Part shown: piece after piece, positions 247 to 18,345 of the stretch
Numbering within the stretch: the first letter of the stretch is position 1
Layout: every line of letters begins with the position of its first letter
Assembly (NCBI GenBank): GCA_003645455.1
Contig: QNFE01000002.1
Location: 1 to 64,000 of the forward strand
DNA from: Gammaproteobacteria bacterium
Lineage (GTDB): Bacteria > Pseudomonadota > Gammaproteobacteria > QNFE01
Length of the DNA stretch: 64,000 bases
Direction of reading: 5' to 3'
Program-made: the position numbers and the translations under genes
Notes under the pieces: model-generated
The model's database searches: none
What the model was told of the DNA's origin: nothing
Seen by the model: only the letters and a program-made list of their open reading frames with translations

Positions 247-263
247 TTCTCACTCCAAGTATT

Positions 264-287: not shown

Positions 288-421
288 GATTTTGACAAGT
301 TTTAAAAGAAAAGAGATGATTTTTAGTGCCATATCTTTTCAACCAAAAAATATCATACACAATTTGAAAAAAAATTACAATTATTTACGAACCTCATTAA
401 AGTTGTAATTGACAATAGATT

Positions 422-451
422 TTGGCATAATTTTAAAAAATATGTTATAGT
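422..451 (+). promoter_or_regulatory. putative promoter of hisAFIE
   Basis: TTGGCA, 18 nt, TATAGT; transcription would start near 458, 24 nt before the hisA ATG. No other his genes lie upstream, so the four-gene unit probably starts here. Sequence match only. Confidence 0.45.
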
Positions 452-481
452 GTCTTGTTTTTTTGTAAAAATTTAATTCAA

Positions 482-1204: not shown

Positions 1205-1206
1205 AA

Positions 1207-1968
1207 ATGTCTCTTGCTAAACGCATTATTCCCTGCCTTGATGTTAATAACAGACGAGTTGTCAAGGGGATAAATTTTGTTGATTTGCAAGATGCAGGTG
1301 ACCCTGTTGAGGTAGCAAAAAGATATAATGCCGAGGGCGCTGATGAGATTACTTTCTTAGATATAACTGCCTCATCTGATAACCGTAAAACAATTTTAGA
1401 TGTTGTAGAAGCTGTCGCAAATGAGGTTTTTATTCCACTCACAGTCGGCGGTGGAGTTAAAAAAATAAGTGATATCCGAGATATTTTAAATAGCGGAGCG
1501 GATAAGGTAGCAATCAATACCGCGGCTATTTTTAACCCAGATTTTGTGCGTGATGCCGCTGATAAAGTTGGTAATCAATGTATTGTAGTTGCCATTGATG
1601 CTAAAAAAGTGGATGATGATAGATGGGAGATTTTTACCCACGGAGGTCGCGAAAAAACCGGCATTGATGCTGTTGAATGGGCGATTAAAATGGCAGAGTG
1701 TGGAGCAGGCGAAATTCTTTTAACCAGTATGGATAGAGACGGCACCAAAATAGGGTTTGATTTGGAATTAACAAGAAAAATATCAGAGGCTATACGGTTG
1801 CCTGTAATAGCCTCAGGCGGAGTTGGCAATTTGCAACATTTGGTTGAAGGAATAAAAGATGGCAAGGCAGATGCTGTGTTGGCGGCAAGCATTTTTCACT
1901 TTGGCACATATAGCATCAATGAGGCAAAAGAATATATGCAAAAAGCCGGAATACAGATGAGATTATAA
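1207..1968 (+). CDS. hisF: Imidazole glycerol phosphate synthase cyclase subunit HisF
   Basis: 253 residues, full length. This barrel-fold cyclase works with HisH, which supplies ammonia, to turn PRFAR into IGP and [19 protein letters not shown] at the N-terminus and VVAIDAKK near residue 127 contain the two catalytic aspartates; TVGGGV and IASGGVG are phosphate-binding loops. It sits 2 nt after hisA and 4 nt before hisI. hisH is not in the window and must lie elsewhere. Confidence 0.96.
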
Positions 1969-1972
1969 AATT

Positions 1973-2374
1973 ATGAACTATATAGATGACATAAATTTTA
2001 ATGCCGCAGGTTTAGTGGCAGTTATTTGTCAGGACTTTAAAACCGATAAAGTTTTGATGATGGCATGGATGAATAAACAAGCCTTAGATTTAAGTATTCA
2101 AAAAAACAAGGCTGTTTTTTATTCTCGCTCACGTCAAAAACTTTGGCACAAAGGCGAAGAATCTGGCTTTTTTTTAAATATAAAAGATATAAGGTTGGAC
2201 TGCGATGGTGATGTTATTCTATTAAAAGTTGAGCAAATTGGTGGAATTTCTTGTCATACTGGCAGATTAAGTTGTTTTTATCGTCGCCTTAAAAATAATA
2301 ACCAATGGGAGAGTTTTTTAAATGTTTTAAAAGACCCTGCCATAATTTACAAAAAAAATAAAAATGCAAAATAA
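1973..2374 (+). CDS. hisI: Phosphoribosyl-AMP cyclohydrolase HisI
   Basis: 133 residues. Opens the adenine ring of PR-AMP, the third step of histidine synthesis. The metal-binding signature is present: DCDGD, followed by GGISCHTGRLSCF with the two zinc-site cysteines. It is a stand-alone enzyme, not fused to HisE as in E. coli, and the hisE start overlaps its 3' end by 11 bp, which suggests translational coupling. Confidence 0.95.
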   Translation: MNYIDDINFNAAGLVAVICQDFKTDKVLMMAWMNKQALDLSIQKNKAVFYSRSRQKLWHKGEESGFFLNIKDIRLDCDGDVILLKVEQIGGISCHTGRLSCFYRRLKNNNQWESFLNVLKDPAIIYKKNKNAK

Positions 2375-2690
2375 TAATATCTTAGAACAAATTCAACAGG
2401 TAGCAGAGGCAAGAAAAACAGCATCTGCTGAAAAATCATATATAAGCTCGTTATATCAACAAGGCACAGACAAGATTTTACAAAAAATAGGCGAGGAGGC
2501 AACCGAGACAATTTTGGCGGCAAAATCTACTGACACAGAACATTTGATAAAAGAGATAGCGGATTTATGGTTTCATAGTATAGTTTTGTTATCTCATAAG
2601 GATTTGAAAATTGATGATGTGTTGCAAGAATTACAACAAAGATTTGGTTTATCTGGCTTGGATGAAAAAAAACAAAGAAAACTGCTTTAA
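2364..2690 (+). CDS. hisE: Phosphoribosyl-ATP pyrophosphatase HisE
   Basis: 108 residues, an all-alpha MazG-like pyrophosphatase that hydrolyses PR-ATP to PR-AMP. The KIGEEATETILAAK helix carries the acidic metal ligands typical of HisE. The start lies inside hisI (11-bp overlap). Last gene of the run; a dispersed-repeat region follows directly. Confidence 0.94.
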   Translation: MQNNNILEQIQQVAEARKTASAEKSYISSLYQQGTDKILQKIGEEATETILAAKSTDTEHLIKEIADLWFHSIVLLSHKDLKIDDVLQELQQRFGLSGLDEKKQRKLL

Positions 2691-2709
2691 TAACGAGCGA
2701 AAAATTCCA

Positions 2710-2950
2710 GTCATTGCGAATAAGCGAAGCGAATGCGGCAATCTCATCAAAGCAGACGGACACCAAAAGAGATCACTTTGCTGTGCTCGTGATGACGACA
2801 GTAAAAAGAGATAACCACGGCGGTTTATTATTCCGTGTTTCTGTTTTATCTCCGTCCGCCTCGTTATGACGAATTCTGTATTTTTGCGAGCAAAAAAAGT
2901 AACCCCGTCATAACGAGCGAGCTTACGAGTGCGGTTATCTCACTCGGACC
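2710..2950. repeat. dispersed repeat cluster (CGTCAT...GAGGCGGAC type)
   Basis: Intergenic block built of the same words as the elements at 13465 and 34401: GTCATTGCGAATAAGCGAAG at 2711, GTCCGCCTCGTTATGACG at 2854-2871 and a CGTCATAACGAGCGAG copy after about 2905. Parts are inverted relative to one another. ORF 2611-2814 in the track is this repeat read through and is not a gene. The remainder of 2951-3045 is AT-rich leader for the next gene. Confidence 0.6.
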
Positions 2951-3001
2951 ATACATGTTAATTTAATTTTTCAATAAAAATAAATAAATAATAAAATAAT
3001 T

Positions 3002-3011
3002 ATGTTATAAT
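3002..3011 (+). promoter_or_regulatory. extended -10 promoter element
   Basis: TGTTATAAT (TG-n-TATAAT) 35 nt before the ATG at 3046; no good -35 box is visible. A good SD, GGAG, precedes the ATG. Confidence 0.45.
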
Positions 3012-3045
3012 ATTGCTTTTTTAATTTTAACTTTGGAGAAATATT

Positions 3046-3639
3046 ATGAAGAAATTATTATTAATCGTGGCAGTGTTTTTGGGTTCTTTGTCTTTTAATG
3101 CTAATGCAGGATTTTTAGATTATATGGGTGGTGGCGCAGCCATTCAAGATGTGGGCGGTGCATTTGATGATGGTGTTGCAGGTGTTTTTAATATGGGTAA
3201 AATATTCCCAAAAACCCGCACAAAGGGTGGTTTTGCTGGGGTATTTGGTGGTGAGGCTGAGATAACTAAATCTTTGGTCAAGCCTAAATACGACAAAGGC
3301 AATATCAAAGCAGAGACAGATATTTTAACCCTATCAGGTTATGGCACTTATCGCCATTATTTTAACAAAAAATTCTATATGATGTTAAAAGCTGGTGTGT
3401 TTTATGTTAAATCAGAAGGAGAGGCTGAAGTCACAATCCCTAGTTATACTTGGTTTGGCACAACAGTAGGAGGTGGGACAACAACAGTCACTACATCTGA
3501 CACAGACACTGGTTTGACCTATGGAGTGCAAGGTGGTATGGCATTGTCAAGAAAGATGGATTTAACAGCCAATTACACAGCCTATCAATTGGATACCACT
3601 ATGACATTGTTAGGTGTTGGAGTAAAATTTAAATTCTAA
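3046..3639 (+). CDS. outer-membrane beta-barrel-like protein
   Basis: 197 residues. A clear signal peptide ([21 protein letters not shown]) precedes a Gly/Thr-rich mature chain whose alternating pattern ends in aromatic-flanked strands ([19 protein letters not shown]; final [10 protein letters not shown] with C-terminal Phe). This matches small eight-strand porin/OmpA-like barrels. The C-terminal Phe is typical of proteins inserted by BAM. No specific family is recognised. Followed by a strong hairpin and then tatA. Confidence 0.7.
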
Positions 3640-3656
3640 TTTTTTAATAGTGTTTC

Positions 3657-3685
3657 AACAAGGGGGCAATTATTGTCCCCTTGTT
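3657..3685 (+). terminator. hairpin terminator after the barrel gene (CAAGGGG palindrome)
   Basis: AACAAGGGG pairs with CCCCTTGTT and the pairing continues inward (GCAAT/ATTGT with one G-T), giving a ~14-bp stem with almost no loop. The following T-run (ATTTGTTT) is only moderate. One of three CAAGGGG...CCCCTTG palindromes in the window. Confidence 0.6.
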
Positions 3686-3733
3686 ATTTGTTTAAAAAAT
3701 AGTAACAAAGTTTATCTTTTAGGAAATTTTATT

Positions 3734-4021
3734 ATGGGAATTAGTATTTGGCAGTTATTGATAATTTTGGCAATTGTTTTATTGTTATTTGGGGCAAAAC
3801 GCCTACGGAATATCGGCGGTGATCTGGGTTCGGCTATCAAAGGCTTTAAAAATGCCGTCAAAGATAATGCTGATGATGACAAAAAAAAAGATAAGGATAA
3901 AAACGATAAAAACGATAAAGAACAGATAACAACAAAAGAATCCGATGATAATATCATTGAAGGCGAGGCTACTATCTTAAAAAAAGATACCGCAAAAGCA
4001 AAAAGTAGCAACAAAAAATAA
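3734..4021 (+). CDS. tatA: Twin-arginine translocase subunit TatA
   Basis: 95 residues. [20 protein letters not shown] is the single N-terminal membrane helix, followed by the [20 protein letters not shown] amphipathic helix typical of TatA and a charged Lys/Asp tail. The track ORF begins at 3650, but AGGA lies 9 nt before ATG 3734 and the family starts at MG.S.WQLL, so 3734 is used. TatA polymerises to form the pore for folded, cofactor-loaded proteins such as SoxB and perhaps SoxY here. Confidence 0.94.
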
Positions 4022-4033
4022 TATATAAAATAA

Positions 4034-4447
4034 ATGTTTGATATTGGCTTTTGGGAAATTCTTATTATTGGTATAATTGCCTTGTTAGTCATAGGGCCTG
4101 AGCGATTACCAGAGGTTGCCCGCACTATCGGCAAATGGGTCGGCAAAGCCCAGCGATTTACCCAATCGATGAAAAATGAACTCAACTCCGAACTTGAAAA
4201 AAATGATCTCAAAGAAGCATTAGAAGAACCTAAAAAAGCCCTCAACGAATTACAACAAAGTTTTCACGATAGCCAAAGTGCCATCAACCAAGAAACCGCA
4301 GATGTTCTTGACATTATGGATGATACCCCCTTATCCCAACAGAAACGAGATGATTTAGACGAAGAGTTAGACGGATTAGATGACTTAGATAACTTAGAAT
4401 ATGACAAACCCAAAAAAGCACAAAAAAGCACAAAAAAAGACGACTAA
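4034..4447 (+). CDS. tatB: Sec-independent translocase subunit TatB
   Basis: 137 residues. MFDIGFWEILIIGIIALLVIGPERLP is the diagnostic N-terminus (membrane helix, then GPERLP hinge), followed by an amphipathic helix (IGKWVGKAQRFTQSMKNEL) and an acidic tail. TatB forms the signal-peptide receptor with TatC. The gene overlaps the start of tatC by 47 bp. Confidence 0.94.
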   Translation: MFDIGFWEILIIGIIALLVIGPERLPEVARTIGKWVGKAQRFTQSMKNELNSELEKNDLKEALEEPKKALNELQQSFHDSQSAINQETADVLDIMDDTPLSQQKRDDLDEELDGLDDLDNLEYDKPKKAQKSTKKDD

Positions 4448-5237
4448 TAACGAACAACCATTTTTATCTCATCTATTAGAATTACGAGATAGAATCTTAA
4501 AAGTTGTCGTGGCGATTGTTGTAGTTTTTGTGGTAATGTTTCCCTTCTCGGAGATAATTTATTCCATTATGGCGACCCCACTATTATCAAGCCTACCAGA
4601 TAATAGCAAAATGCAAGCCATCGGAGTAGCCGCTCCTTTTTTGATCCCTTTAAAAATGGTGCTGGTGGGAGCCGTTTTTATCACAATGCCCTATTCATTG
4701 TATCAAGTTTGGTCTTTTATAGCACCTGGATTATACCTGCACGAGAAAAAAATGGTGCGTCCTTTGATATTTTCATCCACAGTTTTATTTTATACGGGCA
4801 TAGCTTTCGCCCATTTTGTCGTGTTGCCATTAGCTTTTAATTTTTTCGCCACCATCAATATTGAAGGGGTGGAATATAATGCTGATATTGGTTACTACCT
4901 TGATTTTATTTTAACGATTTTTTTTGCATTCGGCATTGCATTTGAGGTGCCGATTGCCACAGTTTTATTGATTGCAACCGGAGCCACCACGGCCGAGAAG
5001 CTTGCTAAAAAACGCCCTTATGTTGTCGTTTTTGCTTTTATAATTGGGATGATGTTAACCCCACCTGATATAATCTCCCAGACTCTACTGGCACTACCGA
5101 TGTGGTTTTTGTTTGAAATGGGACTTATAGTTTCAAAATATTTTTTAAAAAACAAAAAAAATAATAACGATGACAATGATCTTAGTGACGAAGAGCAAGA
5201 GAGAGAATTAGACCAAGCAGAAAAAGAAGAGTTATAA
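4401..5237 (+). CDS. tatC: Sec-independent translocase subunit TatC
   Basis: 278 residues with six predicted membrane helices. The conserved N-terminal FLSHLLELRDRI, the SFIAPGLYLHEKK loop and the FGIAFEVPI motif identify TatC, which binds twin-arginine signal peptides. ATG 4401 is the only plausible start, giving a ~20-residue Lys-rich N-terminus and a 47-bp overlap with tatB. The C-terminus ends in a charged Asp/Glu tail. Confidence 0.94.
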   Translation: MTNPKKHKKAQKKTTNNEQPFLSHLLELRDRILKVVVAIVVVFVVMFPFSEIIYSIMATPLLSSLPDNSKMQAIGVAAPFLIPLKMVLVGAVFITMPYSLYQVWSFIAPGLYLHEKKMVRPLIFSSTVLFYTGIAFAHFVVLPLAFNFFATINIEGVEYNADIGYYLDFILTIFFAFGIAFEVPIATVLLIATGATTAEKLAKKRPYVVVFAFIIGMMLTPPDIISQTLLALPMWFLFEMGLIVSKYFLKNKKNNNDDNDLSDEEQERELDQAEKEEL

Positions 5238-5239
5238 CC

Positions 5240-5764
5240 TCAACTATATTTATATTTTGCCGAATATTTTGGGACTATATCTCTTAGTTTGAATAATTTT
5301 GGATAGATTGTAGTAGATTTTTTAAATATTTTTTCAATTGTTTTGCCATATTTTAAATCATCAAATTCAATGCTATCTAAAAAATTTTTTACATTCAAGC
5401 CTAATTCGGTATCACCTGACATTTTTAATCGCCGATTAAAAAATAAAGTATCAGGATCCTCGCTACGGACAATTAACAATAAGAACTCATATAAGTTGCC
5501 GGCGATTGTCATATCTGCTTGTTTGCCTACTGCATTTATTATTGTTTTTTTGCTTTCATCAATAGATACAGCAAAACAGACATTAATATCCTCTATTTTA
5601 ATTGACAACACTTTATCTTTTAAAAAATCTAATTCACCATTTATCAAATAACTTTTAAGGGTTTTGTTTAATACCATTACAATTGCACCGGTTGAGATTG
5701 TAGGTGGCACCAAAGATATAGGAGCGGATAGAATTTTTGGTAATATATATTGGTTATTTTTCAT
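5240..5764 (-). CDS. ubiT: UbiT-like SCP2-domain protein (O2-independent ubiquinone synthesis)
   Basis: 174 residues with an SCP2 sterol-carrier-like lipid-binding fold. The segment RSEDPDTLFFNRRLKMSGDT followed by ELGLNVKNFLD closely matches E. coli UbiT (YhbT), a factor of the O2-independent ubiquinone pathway. Convergent with tatC (2 nt between the stops). ubiU and ubiV, usual neighbours, are not nearby, so the assignment rests on the motif alone; a general SCP2 protein is the alternative. Confidence 0.75.
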   Translation of the reverse strand: MKNNQYILPKILSAPISLVPPTISTGAIVMVLNKTLKSYLINGELDFLKDKVLSIKIEDINVCFAVSIDESKKTIINAVGKQADMTIAGNLYEFLLLIVRSEDPDTLFFNRRLKMSGDTELGLNVKNFLDSIEFDDLKYGKTIEKIFKKSTTIYPKLFKLRDIVPKYSAKYKYS

Positions 5765-5815
5765 TTTATATGTTAAAATTTATTTTTATTAGAGCAAACC
5801 ATAATACACCATTTT

Positions 5816-6847
5816 ATGAAAATTTTTCTTTTATTTTTGTTTTTGCTTTTTAACCTCTCGGTTTTTGCGGTTGAAAACAATGATTTATCATTTGACGACA
5901 TAGATGATAATTTAATTTTTAATGATTCTCCATTAAAAGATGAATTGTCGCATCCTGATTGGTTCAAACACAGTTTTTTAAATCTACCAGAGGATATAAT
6001 AGAGGCAAAAAAAGATAAAAAAAAAGGGATTATAGTATATTTTGGCCAGAGATTTTGTCCCTATTGCAAAACCTTGATGGAAGTAAATTGGCGAAAGCCT
6101 GATATAGTTAAATATACTCGTGATAATTTTGATGTAATTGCCCTTAGTATTTGGGGCAATAAAGAGGTGGTTTTGCCAGATGGCACTAAAACTACCGAGC
6201 GAGAATATGCCATCAGAAATAATGCTAATTTTACCCCATCTTTAATTTTTTATGATGTATCTGGCAAACAAACTCTTATGTTGCGAGGTTATTACCCTCC
6301 TTATAAGTTTCTGGCAGCATTAGAATATGTAGTAGGAGAGCATTATAAACAAGAAAGTTTGGCTTCTTTTATGTTGCGAGCAAACCCTCCACCTAAATTT
6401 GAAATAGGTGATTTAAACGAACAAGATTTTTTTACCAAAGCTCCTTTTATGCTTGATAGGAGTCGTTTTAAAGCCCAAAAACCTTTGGCAGTATTTTTTG
6501 AACAAAAAGATTGTTATGCCTGTGATGTTTTGCATTCAAAACCACTTTCTGACAAAAACACAAAAAAACTATTGGATAAATTTGAAATAATTCAAGTTGA
6601 TACCAATGACAGGACTCCAATAGTAATTCCAGGCGGACAAAAAATAAATGTTCAACAATGGGCACAGAATCTACAAATTTTCTATACTCCCACTATTGTA
6701 TTTTTTGATGAGATGGGGGTTGAGATTATAAGAGTTGAGTCTGTTGCTCATCTGTATAGAATCCAAAATGTTTTAAAGTTTGTAATCGACAAAACATATT
6801 TGGTGTATCCTAATTTTGCCACTTGGCGTTTTGATATGTTATTTTAA
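5816..6847 (+). CDS. periplasmic double-thioredoxin protein, SoxW-like
   Basis: 343 residues with a signal peptide (MKIFLLFLFLLFNLSVFA). There are two thioredoxin-fold halves: the first has GQRFCPYCKTLMEVNW (about residues 77-92), the second FEQKDCYACDVLHSKP (about 226-241), each with a CxxC site. Both halves carry the PTIVFFDE / PSLIFYDV segment of the fold. It lies next to and convergent with soxXYZA, so a role in keeping Sox proteins (for example the SoxY carrier Cys) reduced is likely, as proposed for SoxW. The tandem arrangement is less usual. Confidence 0.75.
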   Translation: MKIFLLFLFLLFNLSVFAVENNDLSFDDIDDNLIFNDSPLKDELSHPDWFKHSFLNLPEDIIEAKKDKKKGIIVYFGQRFCPYCKTLMEVNWRKPDIVKYTRDNFDVIALSIWGNKEVVLPDGTKTTEREYAIRNNANFTPSLIFYDVSGKQTLMLRGYYPPYKFLAALEYVVGEHYKQESLASFMLRANPPPKFEIGDLNEQDFFTKAPFMLDRSRFKAQKPLAVFFEQKDCYACDVLHSKPLSDKNTKKLLDKFEIIQVDTNDRTPIVIPGGQKINVQQWAQNLQIFYTPTIVFFDEMGVEIIRVESVAHLYRIQNVLKFVIDKTYLVYPNFATWRFDMLF

Positions 6848-6882
6848 TTTTTTTAAAAAAGAGCTCGTTGAGTCATTTGCAT

Positions 6883-6910
6883 AAAAAAGGCAACGAAAAG
6901 TTGCCTTTTT
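6883..6910. terminator. bidirectional terminator between the thioredoxin gene and soxA
   Basis: AAAAAGGCAAC, loop GAAAA, GTTGCCTTTTT: an 11-bp stem with a T-run on both strands, placed between two convergent genes. Confidence 0.85.
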
Positions 6911-6931
6911 AAATTTTAATAAAACATTATA

Positions 6932-7756
6932 CTACTTACGAGCACCAGGGCCATTGGCATCTAAACCATTCCCCATAAAAGATTCATAATATTCCAAAGC
7001 ACGATATTCCTCGCTTTGTGGTTTTTTAGGTTTTGCTCTGATATTCTTATTGCAACCTGCATATCTGCGGTGCAGTGAACCTAAACTTCCCCACTTTGAT
7101 CTATAAACAGGCCAGTGAGTTGTGTGTCCCAAAGCAGGTCCTAATAAATCAGCACGCACATTTTTACCAACATTGTTTACATGACAATCGGTGCAAGACA
7201 TATCTAATTGACCACGTTTGGTTTCAAAGAATTTTTTGCCCTTTTCATACCATGCTATCGCTCTTTTGTCATTAGGAATTTTAATATCAATAGTTTTGCC
7301 ACGTGATGTGAAAGCCAGATATGCACTTATATCAATTAGTGGACCTTTTTTATATTTCAAAGGTTTCTCGTTATTGGCTTTGCGGCAGTTATTAAGAGCC
7401 AACTCCATTGTTATTAAATCTCCGGTTTTGGCATCAAAACGAGGATAAGTGTGTTTGATTCCTATGCCACCATTATCAAAACAACTGGCATATGTTTTGC
7501 CATTTTTAAATGCTGTTTCAAATAGTTTTTTACCACTATCAACATTTATTTCATAGGGTGGAAATTCCTCGATTGATTCCCACTGATCTTTTGATGCAGC
7601 ATCAATAGCATATACCCCATTATTAAATTCAGCAGGATGCACATCTGGATATAAATCATAATAATGTTTGGCAAATGCCTTGCGATCTGATTCAGGTGAT
7701 GCATACAAACCAATACTTATAAAAAATGTTAATAATAAAATTATTTTTTTATTCAT
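6932..7756 (-). CDS. soxA: SoxA, cytochrome c subunit of the SoxAX thiosulfate-oxidising complex
   Basis: 274 residues with a signal peptide (cleavage near residue 19, SIGLYA-S). One haem-binding site, CTDCH (188-192), is present; the N-terminal domain has only isolated cysteines (C92, C124) and no CxxCH, so this is a mono-haem SoxA. RRYAGCNKNIRA (C235) holds the cysteine that ligates the active-site haem and forms the cysteine persulfide. With SoxX it couples thiosulfate to the SoxY cysteine. Last gene of soxX-soxY-soxZ-soxA. Confidence 0.93.
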   Translation of the reverse strand: MNKKIILLLTFFISIGLYASPESDRKAFAKHYYDLYPDVHPAEFNNGVYAIDAASKDQWESIEEFPPYEINVDSGKKLFETAFKNGKTYASCFDNGGIGIKHTYPRFDAKTGDLITMELALNNCRKANNEKPLKYKKGPLIDISAYLAFTSRGKTIDIKIPNDKRAIAWYEKGKKFFETKRGQLDMSCTDCHVNNVGKNVRADLLGPALGHTTHWPVYRSKWGSLGSLHRRYAGCNKNIRAKPKKPQSEEYRALEYYESFMGNGLDANGPGARK

Positions 7757-7782
7757 AGTAATGTTCCTCCTCCAAGGATTAT

Positions 7783-8094
7783 TTATTTAATTTTAGCCGT
7801 AGCACTATCTTTTTCACCTTTATTATCAATCCAACTAATAGTGACATCATCTCCTACTTTGCCACCTTTGAATTGGAATGAAAAATAAGGGTTTTTAGAA
7901 ATCGCTCCGCCCCAGTGGGCATGAACTATTTCTATATCGCCATGTTTGGCTGTTACCTCTTGAATGAAATGGGCAGGAATAAGTTTTTTGGTTTTTTTGT
8001 CCTTTCTTAATCCTGTTTCCATTTTATGTTTAATTAAAGTGCGAACTTCTGTTATCTCACCTTTTAATTTCGCTCTAATTTTAATAGATCCCAT
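7783..8094 (-). CDS. soxZ: SoxZ, sulfur-carrier partner of SoxY
   Basis: 103 residues, no signal peptide. An Ig-like SoxZ domain with the family's N-terminal IRAKLKGEITEVRTLIKHKMETG and SIKIR/HWGGAISKNPYF segments. It heterodimerises with SoxY and is carried to the periplasm with it. 26 nt separate it from soxA and 27 nt from soxY, both within one operon. Confidence 0.94.
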   Translation of the reverse strand: MGSIKIRAKLKGEITEVRTLIKHKMETGLRKDKKTKKLIPAHFIQEVTAKHGDIEIVHAHWGGAISKNPYFSFQFKGGKVGDDVTISWIDNKGEKDSATAKIK

Positions 8095-8121
8095 TGTATT
8101 TTCTCCTGTTATAAAATATAA

Positions 8122-8586
8122 TTAACCGCCACAGCCACCGATAGTAACCTTGACTTCTTTTTTTGCTTGATAGAATTTGCCACCTGCCTTGACAACTGCA
8201 ACTAAGTTGGCAGTTTTACCCATTTTAATTCTTGTTGCCACAAATCCTACGGCACCCTTGCCAAAATTAAAAGTAGAGGTAAGCGGTGATTCATTTTGGT
8301 CGGCAAGAATAGAGATAGATTCTACATTTTCCAAACTTGTGCTAATCGTAATTGGAACCACGGCTCCATTTTCAGCAATATCTGGTGCTTTGATGGTTAT
8401 CTTATCGGATTGAGCAACATCTGTTGCTCCGAGTTCTGCGAAAACCTTATCTACTGCTTTGGCATTAAACTCAGCTTCAATCCAAGCTGCTGCCATAGAG
8501 TTCGTAGGAATGGTAATTCCTGCTGTTGCCATAACCGCTGCGATTGAGGTAGCAAGCGAGTGTTTTAATAATAATCGACGATTCAT
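8122..8586 (-). CDS. soxY: SoxY, thiosulfate-oxidation carrier protein
   Basis: 154 residues. It ends in VTIGGCGG, the swinging-arm motif whose cysteine carries the sulfur intermediate. The N-terminus MNRRLLLKHSLATSIAAVMA has a twin-arginine-like RR followed by a hydrophobic stretch, consistent with Tat export of the folded SoxYZ dimer; tatABC lies 4 kb away. An Ig-like SoxY fold fills the middle. Confidence 0.95.
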   Translation of the reverse strand: MNRRLLLKHSLATSIAAVMATAGITIPTNSMAAAWIEAEFNAKAVDKVFAELGATDVAQSDKITIKAPDIAENGAVVPITISTSLENVESISILADQNESPLTSTFNFGKGAVGFVATRIKMGKTANLVAVVKAGGKFYQAKKEVKVTIGGCGG

Positions 8587-8650
8587 AAAAATATCTCCTA
8601 AAAAATAAAAATAAAAAATTAAACTCTTGAAAACAACATAGTTTCAAAGT

Positions 8651-9034
8651 TTATAAAGTATATATAAAATCCGTTATCAAGTCAATCTCTTTTTCAGTTA
8701 AGATTTTTTTGGCAGAAAATGGTGGCATAATTGATAACTTGTTTCGTGCTCTTGAATTAGCAATTTGTGATCTTAAGGCTTTTTTAGTTTTAAAGCGCAC
8801 CTTCATAGCCACTAAGGGTGGACCTACATTGCCAGGCAACGAACCATCTGCTATAATATGGCAAGCTAAACAATTGCCTTTTTTTCTGCCGAAAGTAAGT
8901 TTTTTGCCCTCTGCTGTGCTTTTTGCACCAACAGCTTCCGCACTATTAACAGAAGTTAGCATAAAAAAATTCAACAAACCTGCAAAAACTATCGCCAAAG
9001 AACTAAACTTCAAAGTTTTTTTGATGAATGACAT
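8651..9034 (-). CDS. soxX: SoxX, mono-haem cytochrome c subunit of SoxAX
   Basis: 127 residues with an N-terminal signal/membrane segment and one haem site, CLACH (55-59), followed by the family's GNVGPPL and a later SIMPPF segment containing the likely axial Met. It accepts electrons from the SoxA haem. First gene of the minus-strand operon; a GGAG-type SD precedes the ATG. Confidence 0.92.
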   Translation of the reverse strand: MSFIKKTLKFSSLAIVFAGLLNFFMLTSVNSAEAVGAKSTAEGKKLTFGRKKGNCLACHIIADGSLPGNVGPPLVAMKVRFKTKKALRSQIANSRARNKLSIMPPFSAKKILTEKEIDLITDFIYTL

Positions 9035-9104
9035 AATTTGTTCTCCTCCAAATTAAATTAAATAAAAATTAAATTCTACAAAATCCATTTAATAACGATA
9101 AAAA

Positions 9105-9162
9105 AACTACATTTTTGTAGTTAAAATAAGTATTAAATAGTGGCTACAATAATACTTATTTT
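9105..9162. promoter_or_regulatory. two inverted repeats upstream of soxX
   Basis: AACTACA-tttt-TGTAGTT (9105-9122) is followed at once by AAAATAAGTATT ... AATACTTATTTT (9123-9134 and 9151-9162), a 12-bp perfect inverted repeat with a 16-nt loop. They lie 70-130 bp before the soxX ATG, where operators or a leader structure would be expected. Function unproven. Confidence 0.45.
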
Positions 9163-9290
9163 TTTATCGTCTGCAATTTATTTTATACCTATTTCATTTT
9201 TTTAGAATATTATAATTTTCTTATACAATTAAATATCTATGCAATTATTGGCATCATACCCCATAACAAAACATTGTTTTTACTATATAT

Positions 9291-9331
9291 TTGATTTAAA
9301 TCAAATTTTTTAAAATTACCATTTTTATATT
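9291..9331 (+). promoter_or_regulatory. perfect FNR/ANR-type site with spaced -10 box in the soxX-soxB divergent region
   Basis: TTGATTTAAATCAA (9291-9304) matches the FNR consensus TTGAT-N4-ATCAA at all ten positions. A TATATT -10 box at 9326-9331 places the site centre about 41 nt before the expected start, the class II activation geometry, pointing to soxB. The rest of 9163-9480 is very AT-rich; a second candidate -10 (TATAAT, 9447-9452) is nearer soxB. Confidence 0.6.
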
Positions 9332-9463
9332 AGTATTTCATTATATGCTAACTAATTGATAATTATATATTTCTGCAATATTGTCATTTTTTTTACCTAT
9401 CAACAAAAAATATTAAAAATATTACATAATTTTTTATAACACTTTGTATAATTTTACAAACCA

Positions 9464-9485
9464 ACAAGGGGACATGTCCCCTTGT
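9464..9485. repeat. perfect 22-bp palindrome upstream of soxB
   Basis: Core CAAGGGGACATGTCCCCTTG is fully self-complementary and extends one base each side. It lies about 50 bp before the soxB ATG, inside the probable leader. Related to the palindromes at 3657 and 45163. Confidence 0.7.
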
Positions 9486-9535
9486 CAAAAAGAAGATGTT
9501 TTATTGTTGTTAGTTTAATTTATAGGAGAATATCA

Positions 9536-11293
9536 ATGAGTATATCAAGAAGACAATTTGTCCAACTTATGGGAATCGCAGGAGCCGCAAGTTTTATATC
9601 AAACCCATCTTTTGCCCGCAAACAAGAATTTAATGATATTTACAATATTCCCAAATTCGGTGATGCCACTATTATGCACTTTACGGATGTGCACGGACAA
9701 CTAAACCCTATTTATTTTCGCGAACCAAATGTCAATATTGGTGTAGGCGGTGCCAAAGGACATGCCCCGCACCTTGTTGGTAATAATTTATTAAAACATT
9801 TTAATATTAAACCGAACTCAATTGAAGCTCATGCATTCACTTATTTAAACTATACAAAAAACGCTCAAACTTTTGGCAAAATTGGCGGTTTTGCCCATCT
9901 ATCTACTTTGATAAATAAAATTCGCTCCTCTGTTGGTGGTGCTGAAAATACTTGCCTCTTAGACGGCGGTGATACTTGGCAAGGCTCTGGCACCTCTTTA
10001 TGGACGAATGGCGAAGATATGGTAGACGCTTGTAATTTACTCGGTGTTGATGCGATGACAGGACACTGGGAATTTACTCACCAAGATACTCAGGTTTTAT
10101 CTAACATTAAAAAATTCAAAGGCGAGTTTTTAGCGCAAAATGTGCGAGTAAAAGAAGAGGCATTATTTGATGATGCTCCGGCATATGATGCTGATAATGC
10201 GATGGCTTTTAAACCATGGACGATAAAAAAAGTAGGCGGACACAGAATCGCTATCATAGGACAGGCATTTCCATATACTCCGATTGCTAACCCGCAAAGA
10301 TTTATTCCAAATTGGAGTTTTGGCATTATGGATGATGAGATGCAAAAAACTGTTGATAAGATTCGTTCAACTGAAAAACCAGATGCGGTGGTGGTTTTGT
10401 CTCATAATGGAATGGATGTAGATTTAAAAATGGCATCAAAGGTTACAGGAATTGATGTAATTTTTGGTGGCCATACTCACGATGGCGTGCCACAACCTAT
10501 CAAGATTAAAAATAAATCTGGCATAACACTGGTCACTAATGCAGGCTCAAATGGTAAATTTTTGGGAGTTATGGCTTTAAAAATAAAAAATAAAAAAGTT
10601 GTTGATTTTAAATATAATCTTTTGCCTGTTTTTTCTAATTTATTGCCTGCTGATAAAAAAATGCAAGATTATATTGATAATGTTCGCCGGCCATACTTGA
10701 AAAAATTAAATCAACCTCTTGCGGTAGCAGATAATTTATTATATCGCCGTGGTAATTTCAACGGCACATTTGATCAGATAATTTGCAATGCTATGAATGA
10801 TGTTAAAGACTCACAAATATCGCTATCTCCTGGTTTTAGATGGGGCACGACTGTTTTACCAGGACAGACAATTACAATGGAAAATGTATTAGATCAAACT
10901 TGCATAACTTACCCTGAAACCTATCGCAGGCAAATGAGTGGCAAAGATATAAAAATAATATTAGAAGATGTAGCGGATAATCTTTTTAACCCTGACCCTT
11001 ATTATCAACAAGGCGGTGATATGGTGCGAGTTGGAGGCTTGGATTATGCCATCTCCCCTAATAAAAAAATAGGTTCTCGCATATCTAGCATGACATTGGA
11101 TAATGGCAAAAAAATAGATCCTAATAAAAAATATATTGTCTCAGGTTGGGCGACAGTGGGCTCAAAGTCCCCAGGGGAGCCGATATGGGATGTAGTAGCC
11201 GAACATTTATCAAAAAATAAAACCGCCAAAATCCCTAAAATAAATACTCCCAAAATTACAGGACTTGGTAAAAACCCAGGACTTGGCAGTTAA
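9536..11293 (+). CDS. soxB: SoxB, dimanganese thiosulfohydrolase
   Basis: 585 residues. A Tat signal (SRRQFVQLMGIAGAASF) precedes a 5'-nucleotidase-type metallophosphoesterase domain with HFTDVHGQ, the LLDGGDTWQGSG metal loop, VLSHNGMD and FGGHTHD. SoxB hydrolyses the terminal sulfate from SoxY-bound thiosulfonate. The track starts at 9482, but AGGAG lies just before ATG 9536 and the Tat motif then sits correctly. Divergent from soxXYZA; no soxCD nearby. Confidence 0.95.
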   Translation: MSISRRQFVQLMGIAGAASFISNPSFARKQEFNDIYNIPKFGDATIMHFTDVHGQLNPIYFREPNVNIGVGGAKGHAPHLVGNNLLKHFNIKPNSIEAHAFTYLNYTKNAQTFGKIGGFAHLSTLINKIRSSVGGAENTCLLDGGDTWQGSGTSLWTNGEDMVDACNLLGVDAMTGHWEFTHQDTQVLSNIKKFKGEFLAQNVRVKEEALFDDAPAYDADNAMAFKPWTIKKVGGHRIAIIGQAFPYTPIANPQRFIPNWSFGIMDDEMQKTVDKIRSTEKPDAVVVLSHNGMDVDLKMASKVTGIDVIFGGHTHDGVPQPIKIKNKSGITLVTNAGSNGKFLGVMALKIKNKKVVDFKYNLLPVFSNLLPADKKMQDYIDNVRRPYLKKLNQPLAVADNLLYRRGNFNGTFDQIICNAMNDVKDSQISLSPGFRWGTTVLPGQTITMENVLDQTCITYPETYRRQMSGKDIKIILEDVADNLFNPDPYYQQGGDMVRVGGLDYAISPNKKIGSRISSMTLDNGKKIDPNKKYIVSGWATVGSKSPGEPIWDVVAEHLSKNKTAKIPKINTPKITGLGKNPGLGS

Positions 11294-11384
11294 AGAAAGC
11301 CTGATTAACTCAAAAAATAGCCAACATACTATTAGCATTACATGTTTTGTTTATCAAATTAGCTTTGAGGGTTATTTTTGTCTG

Positions 11385-11729
11385 TTAATCGGAGCCTCTT
11401 TTAAGGGTGTAAATATAGGTATCAACCATAACTTTATTTTTAAGCTCTGCTGTGGTAAGCTCTCTCTTGTATTCCTCTCCCTCAAACTTATCTAATTTAT
11501 GCCAATTTGTTGCCAGATTGTCGCAAATAAATACATATCCATAAACTTTATCGCCATTTTTATCCAAAACAATTGCAGGATAGCCAATTTTTGCAGCCCA
11601 TCCATTTTGATGTAAAACACCGGTAACACTGGCATTTTCCCACACACCCTCGCCAATATCGGATAAAATATGTTCGTTAGGACAACCAGGGCATAGGCTC
11701 CCATACACAAACAATTTATTTACTACCAT
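11385..11729 (-). CDS. gamma-glutamylcyclotransferase-like (AIG2/YtfP) protein
   Basis: 114 residues with the diagnostic N-terminal LFVYGSLCPG and the later LDKFEGEEYKRE segment of the GGCT-like fold, whose glutamate is usually catalytic. Family members cyclise gamma-glutamyl amines, but small bacterial ones are mostly uncharacterised. Stands alone between soxB and yejF, on the same strand as yejF with 35 nt between them. Confidence 0.8.
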   Translation of the reverse strand: MVVNKLFVYGSLCPGCPNEHILSDIGEGVWENASVTGVLHQNGWAAKIGYPAIVLDKNGDKVYGYVFICDNLATNWHKLDKFEGEEYKRELTTAELKNKVMVDTYIYTLKRGSD

Positions 11730-11764
11730 AATTTATATTCCTTAATTGTCATAAAGAGAGCTCA

Positions 11765-13360
11765 TTATAAAATTGAATCTACTAACTGTTGAGTATAGGT
11801 GTGTTGTGGGTTTTTAAATATCTTATCTGTGCTGTTTTTTTCAACTATCTTACCCTGTTTTAAAACGATAACTTCATCACAAATTGCCCTTATAACATTC
11901 AGATCGTGGCTAATAAAAATATAAGTAAGATTTTCTGTTGTTTGTAAGTCTTGCAATAATTCTAAGACATTTTTTTGAGTTGAAACATCTAAGGCAGAGG
12001 TAGGTTCGTCCAGGATTATAAGAGAGGGTTTTAAAATAATAGCACGAGCTATGGCGATTCTTTGACGTTGTCCGCCGGAGAATTCATGCGGATATAGATG
12101 GGTTATATCGGCAGGCAATCCAACATTTTTTAAAACCTGTTGCATTTTTTGGTTATTTTCTGTATCACTATTATTTGGTTGAAAAACACCCAGACCCTCA
12201 CAAATAATTTGTCCGATGGTAAGGCGAGGAGATAAAGAGGCGAACGGGTCTTGAAAAACAATTTGTAAAAATTCACGCATTTTTTGTATTTGTTTACGAT
12301 TCAAGTCTTTGATTGTTTTATTATTAAATTTTATCGTGCCATTATAAGTTTGCAAATTTAAAATACATTTTGCCAAGGTGGATTTACCAGAACCTGACTC
12401 ACCTACGACACCAAGTGTAGAGCCTTGTTTGACTTTAAAATCAATTTTATCAAGGGCATTTATAATCAGCGGTTTTCTATCAAAAAAACCTTTTTTAATC
12501 TTAAAAGTTTTTGATAAATTTTTTGTCTCTAAAATTGTTTTATCATAGGTTTGATGCGGTTTTTGAGATAATTTATTGGCCTCTAATAATTTTTTGGTGT
12601 AATGATGTTGAGGAGATTTAAAAATATTATCACAAGTCCCACTCTCTACTATTTGCCCTTTTTGCATCACAAAAACATTTTGAGCGAACGATTTAACCAG
12701 TAGTAAATTATGAGTAATCAATAAAATTGCCATTTTATTTTGTTGTTGCAACTTTAATAATAACTCCATAATCTCACTTTGGGTATTGACATCCAAAGCT
12801 GTTGTCGGCTCATCTGCTATCAAAAGTTTAGGGCAGCCTGCCAGCGCCATCGCAATCATCACTCTTTGGCGTTGTCCGCCTGATAACATATGTGGATAGT
12901 TGTTAATCCGTTGCTCGCTATTTTGAATACAAACCAAATCTAATAATTCCAAAGCCCTATTTTTAATTTGTTTTTTATTAAGGGTTTTGTTGTTACTATG
13001 GAGCCGTATGTTTTCTGATAACTGGGCGCCGATAGTCCACAAGGGATTCAAAGCACTCGCAGGCTCTTGAAAAATCATCGTTATATCAGAACCACGAATT
13101 TGTTGCATTGATAAATTATCTAACTTTAAAATATCATCAGTTTGGTTAAAAATAATCTTGCCTTGATATTTAACATATTTTTCATCGTGTAATCGCAACA
13201 AACTCATCGCTGTCACAGATTTCCCAGAGCCAGACTCACCCACCAAAGCAATTCTTTGATTTTGAAAAATCTGCATTGATAAACTTTTTACAATTTCTGT
13301 TTTATCCCCAAACCGCTCAAACGAGATTGATAAATTTTGAATATCTAAGATGGTTTTCAT
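11765..13360 (-). CDS. yejF: peptide ABC transporter ATPase with two nucleotide-binding domains (YejF-like)
   Basis: 531 residues. Two complete ABC halves: GESGSGKSVTAMSL with LSGGQRQRVMIAMAL, and GESGSGKSTLAKCI with FSGGQRQRIAIARAI, each with a LLIADEPTTALD / LIILDEPTSALD Walker B. The OppDF fused-type subunit is standard for YejABEF microcin C/peptide uptake. Its permeases yejB and yejE lie 2 kb upstream on the same strand, separated by a plus-strand methyltransferase-nuclease pair. The substrate is not evident. Confidence 0.88.
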   Translation of the reverse strand: MKTILDIQNLSISFERFGDKTEIVKSLSMQIFQNQRIALVGESGSGKSVTAMSLLRLHDEKYVKYQGKIIFNQTDDILKLDNLSMQQIRGSDITMIFQEPASALNPLWTIGAQLSENIRLHSNNKTLNKKQIKNRALELLDLVCIQNSEQRINNYPHMLSGGQRQRVMIAMALAGCPKLLIADEPTTALDVNTQSEIMELLLKLQQQNKMAILLITHNLLLVKSFAQNVFVMQKGQIVESGTCDNIFKSPQHHYTKKLLEANKLSQKPHQTYDKTILETKNLSKTFKIKKGFFDRKPLIINALDKIDFKVKQGSTLGVVGESGSGKSTLAKCILNLQTYNGTIKFNNKTIKDLNRKQIQKMREFLQIVFQDPFASLSPRLTIGQIICEGLGVFQPNNSDTENNQKMQQVLKNVGLPADITHLYPHEFSGGQRQRIAIARAIILKPSLIILDEPTSALDVSTQKNVLELLQDLQTTENLTYIFISHDLNVIRAICDEVIVLKQGKIVEKNSTDKIFKNPQHTYTQQLVDSIL

Positions 13361-13464
13361 TTTTTGTTTTCACTTAAATTAAATTTTGCAATAGTATATC
13401 ATAAATTTACATTACTGATGATAATTTTAAAACTAATTTTTATCATTGCAAAAAAACAATAATT

Positions 13465-13713
13465 CGTCATAACGAGGCGGACGAATCGCTAATTAACAAT
13501 TGATAGTTAACAGTTATTAGTTTGAGTGTCACTATTAATTTTTAACTAATAACTAATAACTATTTTTAATCCGCCGTGGTTATCTCGTGTTATTATCCGT
13601 TTGCTTTGTTTTTAATCTTGTTTTGTCACAGGTTTAGTGCATACACAGCGAGATTGCCGCGGCGGTTTAAATTCTTGATATTACAGCATTTTTCCGTCCG
13701 CCTCGCAATGACG
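13465..13713. mobile_element. MITE-like element, CGTCATTGCGAGGCGGAC family
   Basis: Bounded by CGTCATAACGAGGCGGAC (13465-13482) and GTCCGCCTCGCAATGACG (13696-13713). Its right ~140 bp is a near-identical inverted copy of 34401-34540. The left part holds an extra AT-rich inverted segment (TAGTTAACAGTTATTAG against CTAATAACTAATAACTA). No ORF of substance. It fills most of the 580-bp gap before the methyltransferase gene; 13714-13870 shows nothing else beyond short hairpins. Confidence 0.7.
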
Positions 13714-13872
13714 GTGGTTCTTTTTTTAGGCTTATGTCCAGCTCTGTCCGACTTATGATAAAAATATGGTTGAGTGTCCAAAATCAGGGCGACCATATTG
13801 TGGGCTTGTAGCCACAACCAAAAACAATGTTGTTGTGTCTATTAATTCTGGTTATCCATGTCATTGAAAAAT

Positions 13873-13901
13873 TTGAAAACAAAAATTAAAAAGTTTATAA
13901 T
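13873..13901 (+). promoter_or_regulatory. promoter of the methyltransferase gene
   Basis: TTGAAA, exactly 17 nt, TATAAT; start expected near 13908, about 33 nt before the ATG. Confidence 0.65.
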
Positions 13902-13940
13902 GTCTATCTTTTGAGAGTGTAATTTTTACTATAAAAACAT

Positions 13941-14723
13941 ATGACACCATACTTTAAAGACAAATCAGTTAAACTTTTTTTGGGGGATAGTTTAGAGTTA
14001 TTAAAAGAGATGCCTGCCGAATGTGTTGATATGATTTTTGCCGACCCTCCTTATAATTTATCAAATGGCGGTTTTAGTTGTCATGCTGGAAAAAGAGTAA
14101 GTGTCAATAAGGGTAAATGGGATCAAAGCCGTGGAATAGAAGAGGATTTTAAATTTCACAATAAATGGATTAAGGCTTGTAGGCGAGTTTTAAAACCAAA
14201 CGGCAGCATGTGGATTTCAGGCACTTATCACTCTATTTATTCTTGTGGTTATGCTTTGCAAAAACAAGGCTGGCATATTATCAATGATATATCATGGCTC
14301 AAACCAAATGCTGCCCCGAACCTATCTTGCAGAATGTTTACCGCAAGCCATGAAACTTTGATATGGGCAAGAAAAGATAAAAAATCCAAACATACTTTTA
14401 ATTATCCAGCAATTAAAAATGGCAACTTCCCAAAAGACTTTATAAAAAAACCAAACAAGCAAATGCGTAGTGTGTGGGCGATCGGCACTCCCTTAAATGG
14501 TGAAAAAAAATATGGCAAGCACCCTACCCAAAAACCAGAGAGCCTATTGGAGAGAATAATTATTGCCGCAAGCTGTGAGGGAGATTTAATATTAGATCCT
14601 TTTTGTGGCAGTGCCACAACAGGTATTATGGCATTAAAACATAAGCGTAAATTTGCAGGATTAGATATGGAGCAACAATATTTTGATGATTTGGCAATAC
14701 CAAGAATTAAGGATTTATTATGA
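13941..14723 (+). CDS. adenine/cytosine-N DNA methyltransferase, beta-type motif order
   Basis: 260 residues. Catalytic motif IV DPPYNLS (about residues 32-38) comes before the AdoMet-binding DPFCGSATTG (about 219-228), the beta-class order; KHPTQKPESLLERII is the usual linker. Target sequence unknown. Preceded by its own good promoter. Its TGA stop is shared with the first bases of a repeat element; without that element the stop would overlap the next ORF's start as ATGA, so the two genes form a probable modification-restriction pair. Confidence 0.9.
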   Translation: MTPYFKDKSVKLFLGDSLELLKEMPAECVDMIFADPPYNLSNGGFSCHAGKRVSVNKGKWDQSRGIEEDFKFHNKWIKACRRVLKPNGSMWISGTYHSIYSCGYALQKQGWHIINDISWLKPNAAPNLSCRMFTASHETLIWARKDKKSKHTFNYPAIKNGNFPKDFIKKPNKQMRSVWAIGTPLNGEKKYGKHPTQKPESLLERIIIAASCEGDLILDPFCGSATTGIMALKHKRKFAGLDMEQQYFDDLAIPRIKDLL

Positions 14724-14817
14724 GACCTTTGCATAATTCAAGCACAATTTATAAAACACATAAAAATGCACTATTTTCTGCATTCTCTAAACAGCACTTG
14801 ATTTATGCAAAGGTCTC
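14722..14817. mobile_element. GAGACC-family MITE (96 bp) with ATTAT duplication
   Basis: Ends GAGACCTTTGCATAATTCAA and its inverse (TTGATTTATGCAAAGGTCTC), flanked by perfect 5-bp repeats ATTAT at 14717-14721 and 14818-14822. Short size class without the inner palindrome. It lies exactly at the methyltransferase-nuclease junction. Confidence 0.88.
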
Positions 14818-14820
14818 ATT

Positions 14821-15348
14821 ATGATTGAGGGCGGAACAGGTGGAAACACAACTTTAACTGGTTTAAACTTTGAGAATAAGGTAGATTTAATCACACTACT
14901 AATGCAAATAAAAGGATATAGTGTAAAAAAACAAGCAGTTGGAAACAACATATTATTCAACAATAAAGTTGTAGCAAGATGTTTTAAAAAATATGAATTT
15001 TATAAGTTTTTAGATGAACATAAAATAGACCATAAGAGCATATTATCTAAAAAACTTTTACCAGATGATGCTTTACTTGTCATTGTCCGCGAAACCTTAT
15101 TTATTATTGAGGTTAAATATCAACAAGTTGCAGGATCTGTTGACGAAAAACTACAAACTTGTGATTTTAAAAGAAAACAATACTTGAAATTGGTTCAGCC
15201 ATTAGGCATTAAAGTTGAATATGTTTATGTGTTAAATGATTGGTTCAAACAACCATCTTATAAGGATGTTTTGGATTATATCAATAGCATGAATTGCCAT
15301 TATAAATTCAATGAGTTGCCTTTATCTTGGCTGGGATTACCGAAATAA
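14821..15348 (+). CDS. putative type II restriction endonuclease (PD-(D/E)XK)
   Basis: 175 residues. The N-terminus GGTGGNTTLTGLNFE is a glycine-rich start followed by the conserved Glu; PDDALLVIVRETLFIIEVKYQ supplies an acidic-X(n)-E-V-K core typical of PD-(D/E)XK nucleases. Directly downstream of a methyltransferase, so it is the likely cognate restriction enzyme. The AAAGG of the MITE right end lies 7 nt before the ATG and can act as its ribosome-binding site. Specificity unknown. Confidence 0.7.
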   Translation: MIEGGTGGNTTLTGLNFENKVDLITLLMQIKGYSVKKQAVGNNILFNNKVVARCFKKYEFYKFLDEHKIDHKSILSKKLLPDDALLVIVRETLFIIEVKYQQVAGSVDEKLQTCDFKRKQYLKLVQPLGIKVEYVYVLNDWFKQPSYKDVLDYINSMNCHYKFNELPLSWLGLPK

Positions 15349-15356
15349 AAGACCTA

Positions 15357-16397
15357 TCAATTATTACGAGTATCAAAAGCAGATCGCAATGCCTCGCCGA
15401 TAAAAATTAGTAAAATCAAAGTGCCGACCAAAACTGTAAAAGTTGTCAAGGATAACCACCATGCATCAATATTTTCTTTGCCTTGGGATAATAACTCGCC
15501 CAATGATGGCGTTGAAGGTGGCACGCCTAACCCCAGATAATCCAAACTTGTTAAGGCTAAGATTGAGGCGGACAAACGAAATGGCAAAAAAGTTATAACC
15601 GGGGTCAGGCTATTTGGCAAAAGGTGTCGCCACATTATTTTTACATTTCCTACCCCCAACGCCCGAGCTGCCTCGACATAGTCCAGATTTCGTGCTTTGA
15701 GAAACTCGGCACGAACATAATCTGCCAAACCCATCCAGCCGAACATTGATAATAAAATCAACAATAACCAAATACTAGGCTGAAAGATTGAGGCAAAAAT
15801 AATCAACAAATATAACTCTGGCATTGAACCATATACTTCAATAATTCTTTGCATCACCAGATCAATTTTGCCGCCAAAATATCCTTGAATTGCTCCCAAA
15901 ATTATGCCAATAATTGTGCCGATAACACTTAACACAACTCCAAATAATAACGATAACCGAAAGCCATAAATCAGCCTTGCTAAAACATCTCGCCCTCTGT
16001 CATCTGTCCCCAGTAAATTATCCATATTCGGTGGTGCGGGGTTGGGGTGGCGGGTGTTATAATTGATGGTATTAAAACTATACGGATTAGGTGGATAAAT
16101 TACCCAGTTGCCGTTTTTTGTTAATTTTTCTTTAATATATTCGTCATTATAATTTGCCTCTGACTCAAAATCTCCGCCAAAAGTTGTTTCAGAATAGGTT
16201 TTAAAAAGTGGAAAATAATAAGAGTTATTATAATTTATTATCAAAGGTTTGTCGTTGCTAATCACTTCGGCAAACATACTAATTATGAATAAAAAACTAA
16301 TTATCCATAAACTTATCAAACCACGGCGATTTTTTTTAAATCTTAAAATTGCCTGTTGAGTGATGGAAAGATTTTTTTTTGTATTTGTGTTTTTCAT
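15357..16397 (-). CDS. yejE: peptide ABC transporter permease (YejE-like)
   Basis: 346 residues of the DppC/OppC permease family. An N-terminal helix is followed by the long periplasmic insert found in YejE (residues ~45-130), the LLGTDDRGRDVLARLIYG motif and a C-terminal five-helix BPD domain with the EAARALGVGN coupling loop. Forms the membrane channel with YejB. 15 nt after yejB. Convergent with the nuclease gene, 8 nt apart. Confidence 0.9.
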   Translation of the reverse strand: MKNTNTKKNLSITQQAILRFKKNRRGLISLWIISFLFIISMFAEVISNDKPLIINYNNSYYFPLFKTYSETTFGGDFESEANYNDEYIKEKLTKNGNWVIYPPNPYSFNTINYNTRHPNPAPPNMDNLLGTDDRGRDVLARLIYGFRLSLLFGVVLSVIGTIIGIILGAIQGYFGGKIDLVMQRIIEVYGSMPELYLLIIFASIFQPSIWLLLILLSMFGWMGLADYVRAEFLKARNLDYVEAARALGVGNVKIMWRHLLPNSLTPVITFLPFRLSASILALTSLDYLGLGVPPSTPSLGELLSQGKENIDAWWLSLTTFTVLVGTLILLIFIGEALRSAFDTRNN

Positions 16398-16412
16398 AAG
16401 ACCTTCATCTTG

Positions 16413-17462
16413 TTATCTCGCCTCATCAAATGCAATCCGTGGATCAATCAACACATAACTTATATCAGACATAAGTTTTGCTACCAAGCCCATCAGACTA
16501 AATATAAATAAAGATCCCAAAACAACTGGATAATCTCGCCGCAGGATTGACTCATAGGATAATAACCCTAATCCATCAAGGGAGAAAATCTGTTCTATCA
16601 ATAGGCTTCCGGTAAAAAATGCTCCGATGAAAGCGGCTGGAAACCCTGTAATAAGCGGAATCATTGCATTGCGTAAAATATGGCGGTATGAAATTGTTGT
16701 CTCAGATAAACCTTTGGCTCGTGCGGTTATAACATATTGTTTAGATATCTCTTCCAAAAAACTATTTTTAGTAAGCATTGTCATAACTGCCAAGGAACCA
16801 ACACTCATCGCCAAAACTGGTAAAAAAATATGCCATAAATAATCGGTTATTTTGCTCCAAAATGATAGAGAATCAAAATTATCAGATATCAATCCTCGCA
16901 ACGGAAACACATCATAAAAACTACCGCCACCGAACAAAACCAACAAAGCGATGCCTAACAGGAAACCCGGAATTGCATAACCTACTAAAATCACCGTGCT
17001 ACTTATAACATCAAAACGACTGCCGTGATAGAGTGCTTTGCTGATGCCTAATGGGATTGAGATAAGATAAGTGATTAAAAAAGTCCAAATACCAAGACTG
17101 ATTGAGACCGGTAATTTTTCTTTAATTAGTGAGATGACGGATTTATGTTGAAAATAACTATCCCCAAAATCAAGGACAAGGTAATTTTTTATCATCATCC
17201 AAAATCTTTGATGAATCGGTTTATCAAAACCATATCTTAATTTTATTTTATTTAATATCTCATCATCAAGCCCTGCCCTGCCACGATAGGTTTGTCCGAA
17301 ACCAGTGGCAACCTCTCCTGTTTGTGATTCGCCTTGAAGTTGATGAACTAATTGTTCCACAGGACCGCCCGGCACAAATTGGGTCACTATAAAAGTTAAT
17401 AACATTATGCCAAACAAAGTTGGAATCATCAATAATAATCTTTTAAGTATATAAAAAAACAT
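16413..17462 (-). CDS. yejB: peptide ABC transporter permease (YejB-like)
   Basis: 349 residues, DppB/OppB family: an N-terminal helix (LLLMIPTLFGIMLLTFIVTQFVPGGP), then the YGFDKPIHQRFW segment, and a BPD domain with the ITARAKGLSE coupling loop. The ~60-residue insert after helix 1 (QGESQTGEVATGFGQTYRGRAGL) is characteristic of YejB. First gene of the transporter unit; no yejA-type binding protein is adjacent. Confidence 0.9.
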   Translation of the reverse strand: MFFYILKRLLLMIPTLFGIMLLTFIVTQFVPGGPVEQLVHQLQGESQTGEVATGFGQTYRGRAGLDDEILNKIKLRYGFDKPIHQRFWMMIKNYLVLDFGDSYFQHKSVISLIKEKLPVSISLGIWTFLITYLISIPLGISKALYHGSRFDVISSTVILVGYAIPGFLLGIALLVLFGGGSFYDVFPLRGLISDNFDSLSFWSKITDYLWHIFLPVLAMSVGSLAVMTMLTKNSFLEEISKQYVITARAKGLSETTISYRHILRNAMIPLITGFPAAFIGAFFTGSLLIEQIFSLDGLGLLSYESILRRDYPVVLGSLFIFSLMGLVAKLMSDISYVLIDPRIAFDEAR

Positions 17463-17524
17463 AAGGTCTATTTTTGTTTTAAAAAGACAGTATAAAAGAT
17501 TTTTATGTTATTTTTTGAAAAAAC

Positions 17525-17554
17525 TTGATTTTAACACTTTATTTATTGTATAAT
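17525..17554 (+). promoter_or_regulatory. promoter of tusA-dsrE2
   Basis: TTGATT, 18 nt, TATAAT, ending 33 nt before the tusA ATG; AAGGAG is the ribosome-binding site. Confidence 0.6.
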
Positions 17555-17587
17555 GGTTTGTTTTTACTTTTTATAAGGAGTTTTATT

Positions 17588-17818: not shown

Positions 17819-17846
17819 GATTTTTTATTTTTTGAGGTATTAAATT

Positions 17847-18326: not shown

Positions 18327-18345
18327 CTTTTATTTTTTTTACATC

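Follow-up and report, generated by a model that had tools for sequence, protein, structure and literature searches.

Control of the sox genes has mostly been described through sulfur-sensing repressors. In Hyphomicrobium, SoxR and sHdrR repress sox and also affect nitrate respiration genes (PMC12423496, PMC10451225). In Pseudomonas aeruginosa, ANR and DNR control denitrification (PMC8139620), and in known FNR proteins the ETxSR pattern reads TTGAT (PMC7349173). We found no report of FNR or DNR control of sox in the literature searched, which left most subscription journals outside. Here, we describe a perfect FNR/DNR-type box between divergent sox genes of a gammaproteobacterium and, judging from the sequence and its genomic context, consider it fairly likely that sox belongs to an FNR/DNR regulon in this organism, probably being activated toward soxB at low oxygen or in the presence of NO.

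The window, that is, the whole stretch of 64,000 nucleotides that was analyzed, contains sox genes whose identities were assigned by Pfam and NCBIfam matches. On the plus strand lies soxB, coding for the thiosulfohydrolase (9536–11293; NCBIfam TIGR04486, 862.6 bits), and on the minus strand the divergent soxXYZA genes: soxX, the first of them, coding for a c-type cytochrome (8651–9034; NCBIfam TIGR04485), soxY (8122–8586; PF13501), soxZ (7783–8094; PF08770), and soxA (6932–7756; PF21342 and TIGR04484). The starts of soxX (9034, minus) and soxB (9536, plus) are separated by a 501-bp gap, midway in which we located the box TTGATTTAAATCAA (9291–9304, no strand; centre 9297.5). As the original prediction had stated, this box matches all ten conserved bases of TTGATN4ATCAA without a mismatch; it also forms the central part of a perfect 18-bp palindrome, ATTTGATTTAAATCAAAT (9289–9306). 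The distance from the box centre to the start codon is 263.5 bp for soxX and 238.5 bp for soxB, so that the box is in the promoter region and outside the genes.

In one given 500-bp intergenic stretch, the chance of a perfect box is about 0.003–0.004. Across the window there were two perfect boxes vs. 0.43 expected from dinucleotide shuffles, and 10 of 100 shuffles gave at least two. To find one perfect box in a 64-kb window is nothing unusual, and in an AT-rich genome such a box taken alone is weak evidence; the description of a ten-of-ten match with correct spacing as uncommon overstated the single-site statistics. It is the genome-wide company of similar boxes that sets the sox box above chance. 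Pattern searches of the genome (AT-rich, 2.06 Mb in 83 contigs), and of the stretches around sites or genes of interest, revealed 26 perfect boxes. The 18 of them in coding sequence are at the chance rate (12–22 expected from Markov models). In contrast, with strict ORF boundaries, 8 were intergenic vs. 1.4–2.0 expected, a 4–6-fold excess (Poisson 1e-3 to 1e-4), the expectation being that of a model built from 25 kb of intergenic sequence and extrapolated to the whole intergenic fraction, estimated at 11.5% of the genome (~237 kb). A reversed-pattern control (52 vs. 198) was rejected as a yardstick because the pattern is rich in TAG/CTA. The extended form TTGATT[T/C]AAATCAA was present at 5 places in the genome vs. 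~0.5 expected, namely at sox, a DUF302 gene, napF, nirS, and one contig-end site. Again with strict ORF boundaries, the TT[T/C]AA centre was seen in 4 of the 8 intergenic boxes vs. 1 of the 18 coding ones (Fisher 0.02); this single coding example, a second box at nirS, reaches just into the 3' end of the preceding gene.

Classic targets of FNR/DNR are found among the genes that follow such boxes (napF, nirS, hemN, and the hydrogenase operon). Besides the one in the sox gap, intergenic perfect boxes precede napF (two boxes; TIGR00402, the first gene of the nap operon), the cytochrome cd1 gene nirS (PF02239, 400 bits; this intergenic box in addition to the overlapping one), hupD, and the DUF302 gene; of the remaining two, the first sits at the end of a contig and the second is apparently a chance match. 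A box with one mismatch (9/10), TTGATTTAAATCAT, was found upstream of hemN. The gene hupD opens a [NiFe] hydrogenase operon (L160, 11990–17759), which codes for a maturation protease, several redox or membrane proteins, and the large subunit; the box lies 82.5 bp ahead of hupD. The DUF302 gene (L166, 4661–5206) is preceded, likewise by 82.5 bp, by a box identical to TTGATTTAAATCAA (4572–4585). A norC/norB-like pair (L168, 5365–7235) is preceded, at a distance of 153 bp, by the variant palindrome TTGACGTATGTCAA, possibly a form preferred by DNR. Within the 350 bp searched, this variant was the only candidate at norC, and no good box was seen at nosZ, ccoN, fnr, or dnr.

Next to the sox box, a candidate −10 element for soxB, TATATT (9326–9331, plus; 5/6), begins 28.5 bp from the box centre, in agreement with the class II distance claimed in the original prediction. 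The implied soxB start is near 9338–9339 and would place the box at about −41.5, the class II spacing. This element alone means little, because a 5/6 −10 within a 3-bp slot is expected at about 7% of intergenic positions. The same measure, from the box centre to a 5/6 −10, gave 29.5 bp at nirS, 28.5 bp at napF, and 29.5 bp at hemN, each against a background near 7% per slot; a 5/6 −10 at class II spacing was absent from the hydrogenase, DUF302, and contig-end boxes. The napF case is doubtful: at class II spacing from the box nearer to napF (L158, 3648–3661), the transcript would begin right at the napF start codon, so that either the message would be leaderless or the box would be used in another way. 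Toward soxX, a weak candidate −10, TGTTAT (9263–9268, minus; 4/6), begins 29.5 bp from the box centre, and the sox box could also serve soxX.

We also compared the sox region with 113 other soxB loci (114 with that of the window; 79 from genome contigs and 30+ class-level), a set without any further member of this order. The assignment of the genome to the Gammaproteobacteria follows from its soxB relatives. The divergent arrangement of soxX and soxB (6932–11293) was particular to the window, being present in 0 of the 113 others. Searched over 2.5 kb upstream of soxB, none of these loci, all of which lack the divergent gap, showed a perfect box, and none of 29 other soxX loci had one at soxX. 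One locus (L050) has a perfect box about 2.6 kb from soxB, ahead of an unrelated gene, and single-mismatch boxes upstream of other soxB loci were scattered. This absence from the sampled sox loci counts mildly against deep conservation of the box. It also speaks for the possibility that the sox box is simply among the 1.4–2 perfect boxes to be expected in an AT-rich intergenic space of ~237 kb and that nothing of importance binds to it, as do the chance-level coding matches and the ubiquity of −10-like hexamers. Nevertheless, we regard such an accident as unlikely, given the intergenic excess, the TT[T/C]AA centre common to the sox, nap, and nirS boxes, a −10 spacing at soxB that agrees with those at nirS, napF, and hemN, and the position of the box in a shared divergent promoter region.

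Examination of the genome for cognate regulators revealed two clear Crp/Fnr-type HTH proteins. The first (L016, 1021–1743) scored as FNR (232.6 bits vs. the NF008365 cut-off of 228), with the solved FNR regulator 5cvr as its best match (6e-53); its CX2CX5C motif and central Cys align as the four cluster cysteines, and its recognition helix carries ETVSR. Its activating loop reads TEQGDEQ vs. TDAKNTQ in 5cvr and is one residue shorter, such that the class II contact is not guaranteed. The second (L017, 1042–1746) is DNR-like (best match DNR 3dkw, 1e-36), lacks the N-terminal cysteines, and has a PETLSR helix; the ETxSR pattern is therefore kept in the recognition helices of both proteins. Thus, the fnr gene that had been predicted is present, accompanied by a DNR-type gene. 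The genome also encodes nap, nirS, a nor-type pair, and nosZ. One of two COX1-family genes adjoins the norC-like gene; the other looks, by its neighbors and without a family match, like a cbb3-type oxidase. The presence of the nap, nirS, nor, cbb3-like oxidase, and nosZ genes makes nitrate-dependent thiosulfate oxidation plausible for this sulfur bacterium.

A functional box need not activate soxB in the class II manner. It may instead repress or fine-tune sox when oxygen is lacking, with soxB served by another promoter, such as one at 9356–9384, or it may function from a class I position at about −93. Consistent with either, the box is central, 238–264 bp from both start codons, and a sigma-70-like site directed toward soxB, TTGATA-17-TATTGT (9356–9384, plus; 9/12), would give a start that puts the box near −93. 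That site is at chance level, as sigma-70-like sites in the gap were as frequent as in shuffled sequence (7 found vs. 6.0 expected), whereas the better −10 stands at the class II distance, as at other targets in this genome. Moreover, with denitrification genes present, shutting down a donor pathway in the absence of oxygen would be odd. We accordingly judge repression or class I action quite unlikely. A class II start would imply a soxB leader of ~200 nt, longer than the leaders at hemN or hupD, which is a point against the class II reading. The predicted folding of this leader was within the chance range (z −1.7), and an Rfam search of positions 1–20000 gave no match. Within the predicted leader is a REP-like palindrome, AAGGGGACATGTCCCCTT (9467–9484, no strand), whose 14-bp core, GGGGACATGTCCCC, recurs at 37 places in the genome, usually inside ACAAGGGGACATGTCCCCTTGT. 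Four copies flank the sole detected match to a Y1-type (REP-associated) transposase (contig 17; L225, 1360–2383), and together the palindromes and the transposase look like a REP/RAYT family.

An ArsR-type regulator gene (L226, 1420–2441), followed by rhodanese-like and glutaredoxin-like genes, is a candidate sulfur-responsive regulator. That a repressor of this kind (SoxR/sHdrR) alone controls sox, with oxygen status irrelevant, has the Hyphomicrobium precedent and this one gene with its neighbors in its favor, but is very improbable, as the gene lies on another contig away from sox and the box would be left unexplained, and both controls could coexist.

We therefore return to FNR/DNR activation of sox as the preferred reading. 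That a regulator binds the sox box, where transcription begins, whether expression rises or falls, and which of the two proteins acts are all inferred, and the site suits the NO-sensing DNR no less than the oxygen-sensing FNR. With falling oxygen, FNR carrying an intact 4Fe-4S cluster, or, once NO appears, DNR, would bind as a dimer at 9291–9304. Acting as a class II activator, the bound dimer would then contact the RNA polymerase that uses the −10 at 9326–9331 and so increase the expression of soxB and, perhaps, of the oppositely directed soxXYZA, and thiosulfate oxidation would thereby be expressed together with nap, nirS, the hydrogenase, and hemN. The original prediction that thiosulfate oxidation is tied to oxygen or nitrogen-oxide status is partly supported, namely by the site, the spacing, the regulators, and the nap and nirS boxes; its activation part, class II activation toward soxB, is plausible on the sequence features described. 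More tentatively, the thiosulfate and hydrogen donor pathways and the denitrification chain might form one FNR/DNR regulon in this lineage, in which case donor and acceptor machinery would be switched jointly by an oxygen/NO cue and not by the sulfur substrate. An oxygen/NO-responsive box on sox would link a sulfur donor to denitrification transcriptionally in a chemolithotroph, which matters for how such bacteria couple the removal of sulfide or thiosulfate with the loss of nitrogen where oxic and anoxic zones meet.

The box, its spacing, and the regulators make up a textbook arrangement, whereas its application to sox is less documented. As in the FNR/ANR class II promoters of Gammaproteobacteria (PMC7349173), there is a 10/10 TTGATN4ATCAA at about −41.5 from the implied start and an FNR with four cluster cysteines and an ETxSR helix; in contrast to those promoters, the target here is sox, and the activating loop of FNR differs. 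The genome resembles Pseudomonas aeruginosa (DNR/ANR) in having two FNR-like regulators (oxygen, NO) and boxes upstream of the genes for nitrate and nitrite reductase, but here the same boxes are also found on the electron-donor pathway sox and on the hydrogenase operon. With the SoxR/sHdrR system of Hyphomicrobium denitrificans (PMC12423496) it would share the joint regulation of thiosulfate oxidation and denitrification, which there depends on sulfane-sulfur-responsive ArsR-type repressors, whereas here we propose activators that sense oxygen or NO.
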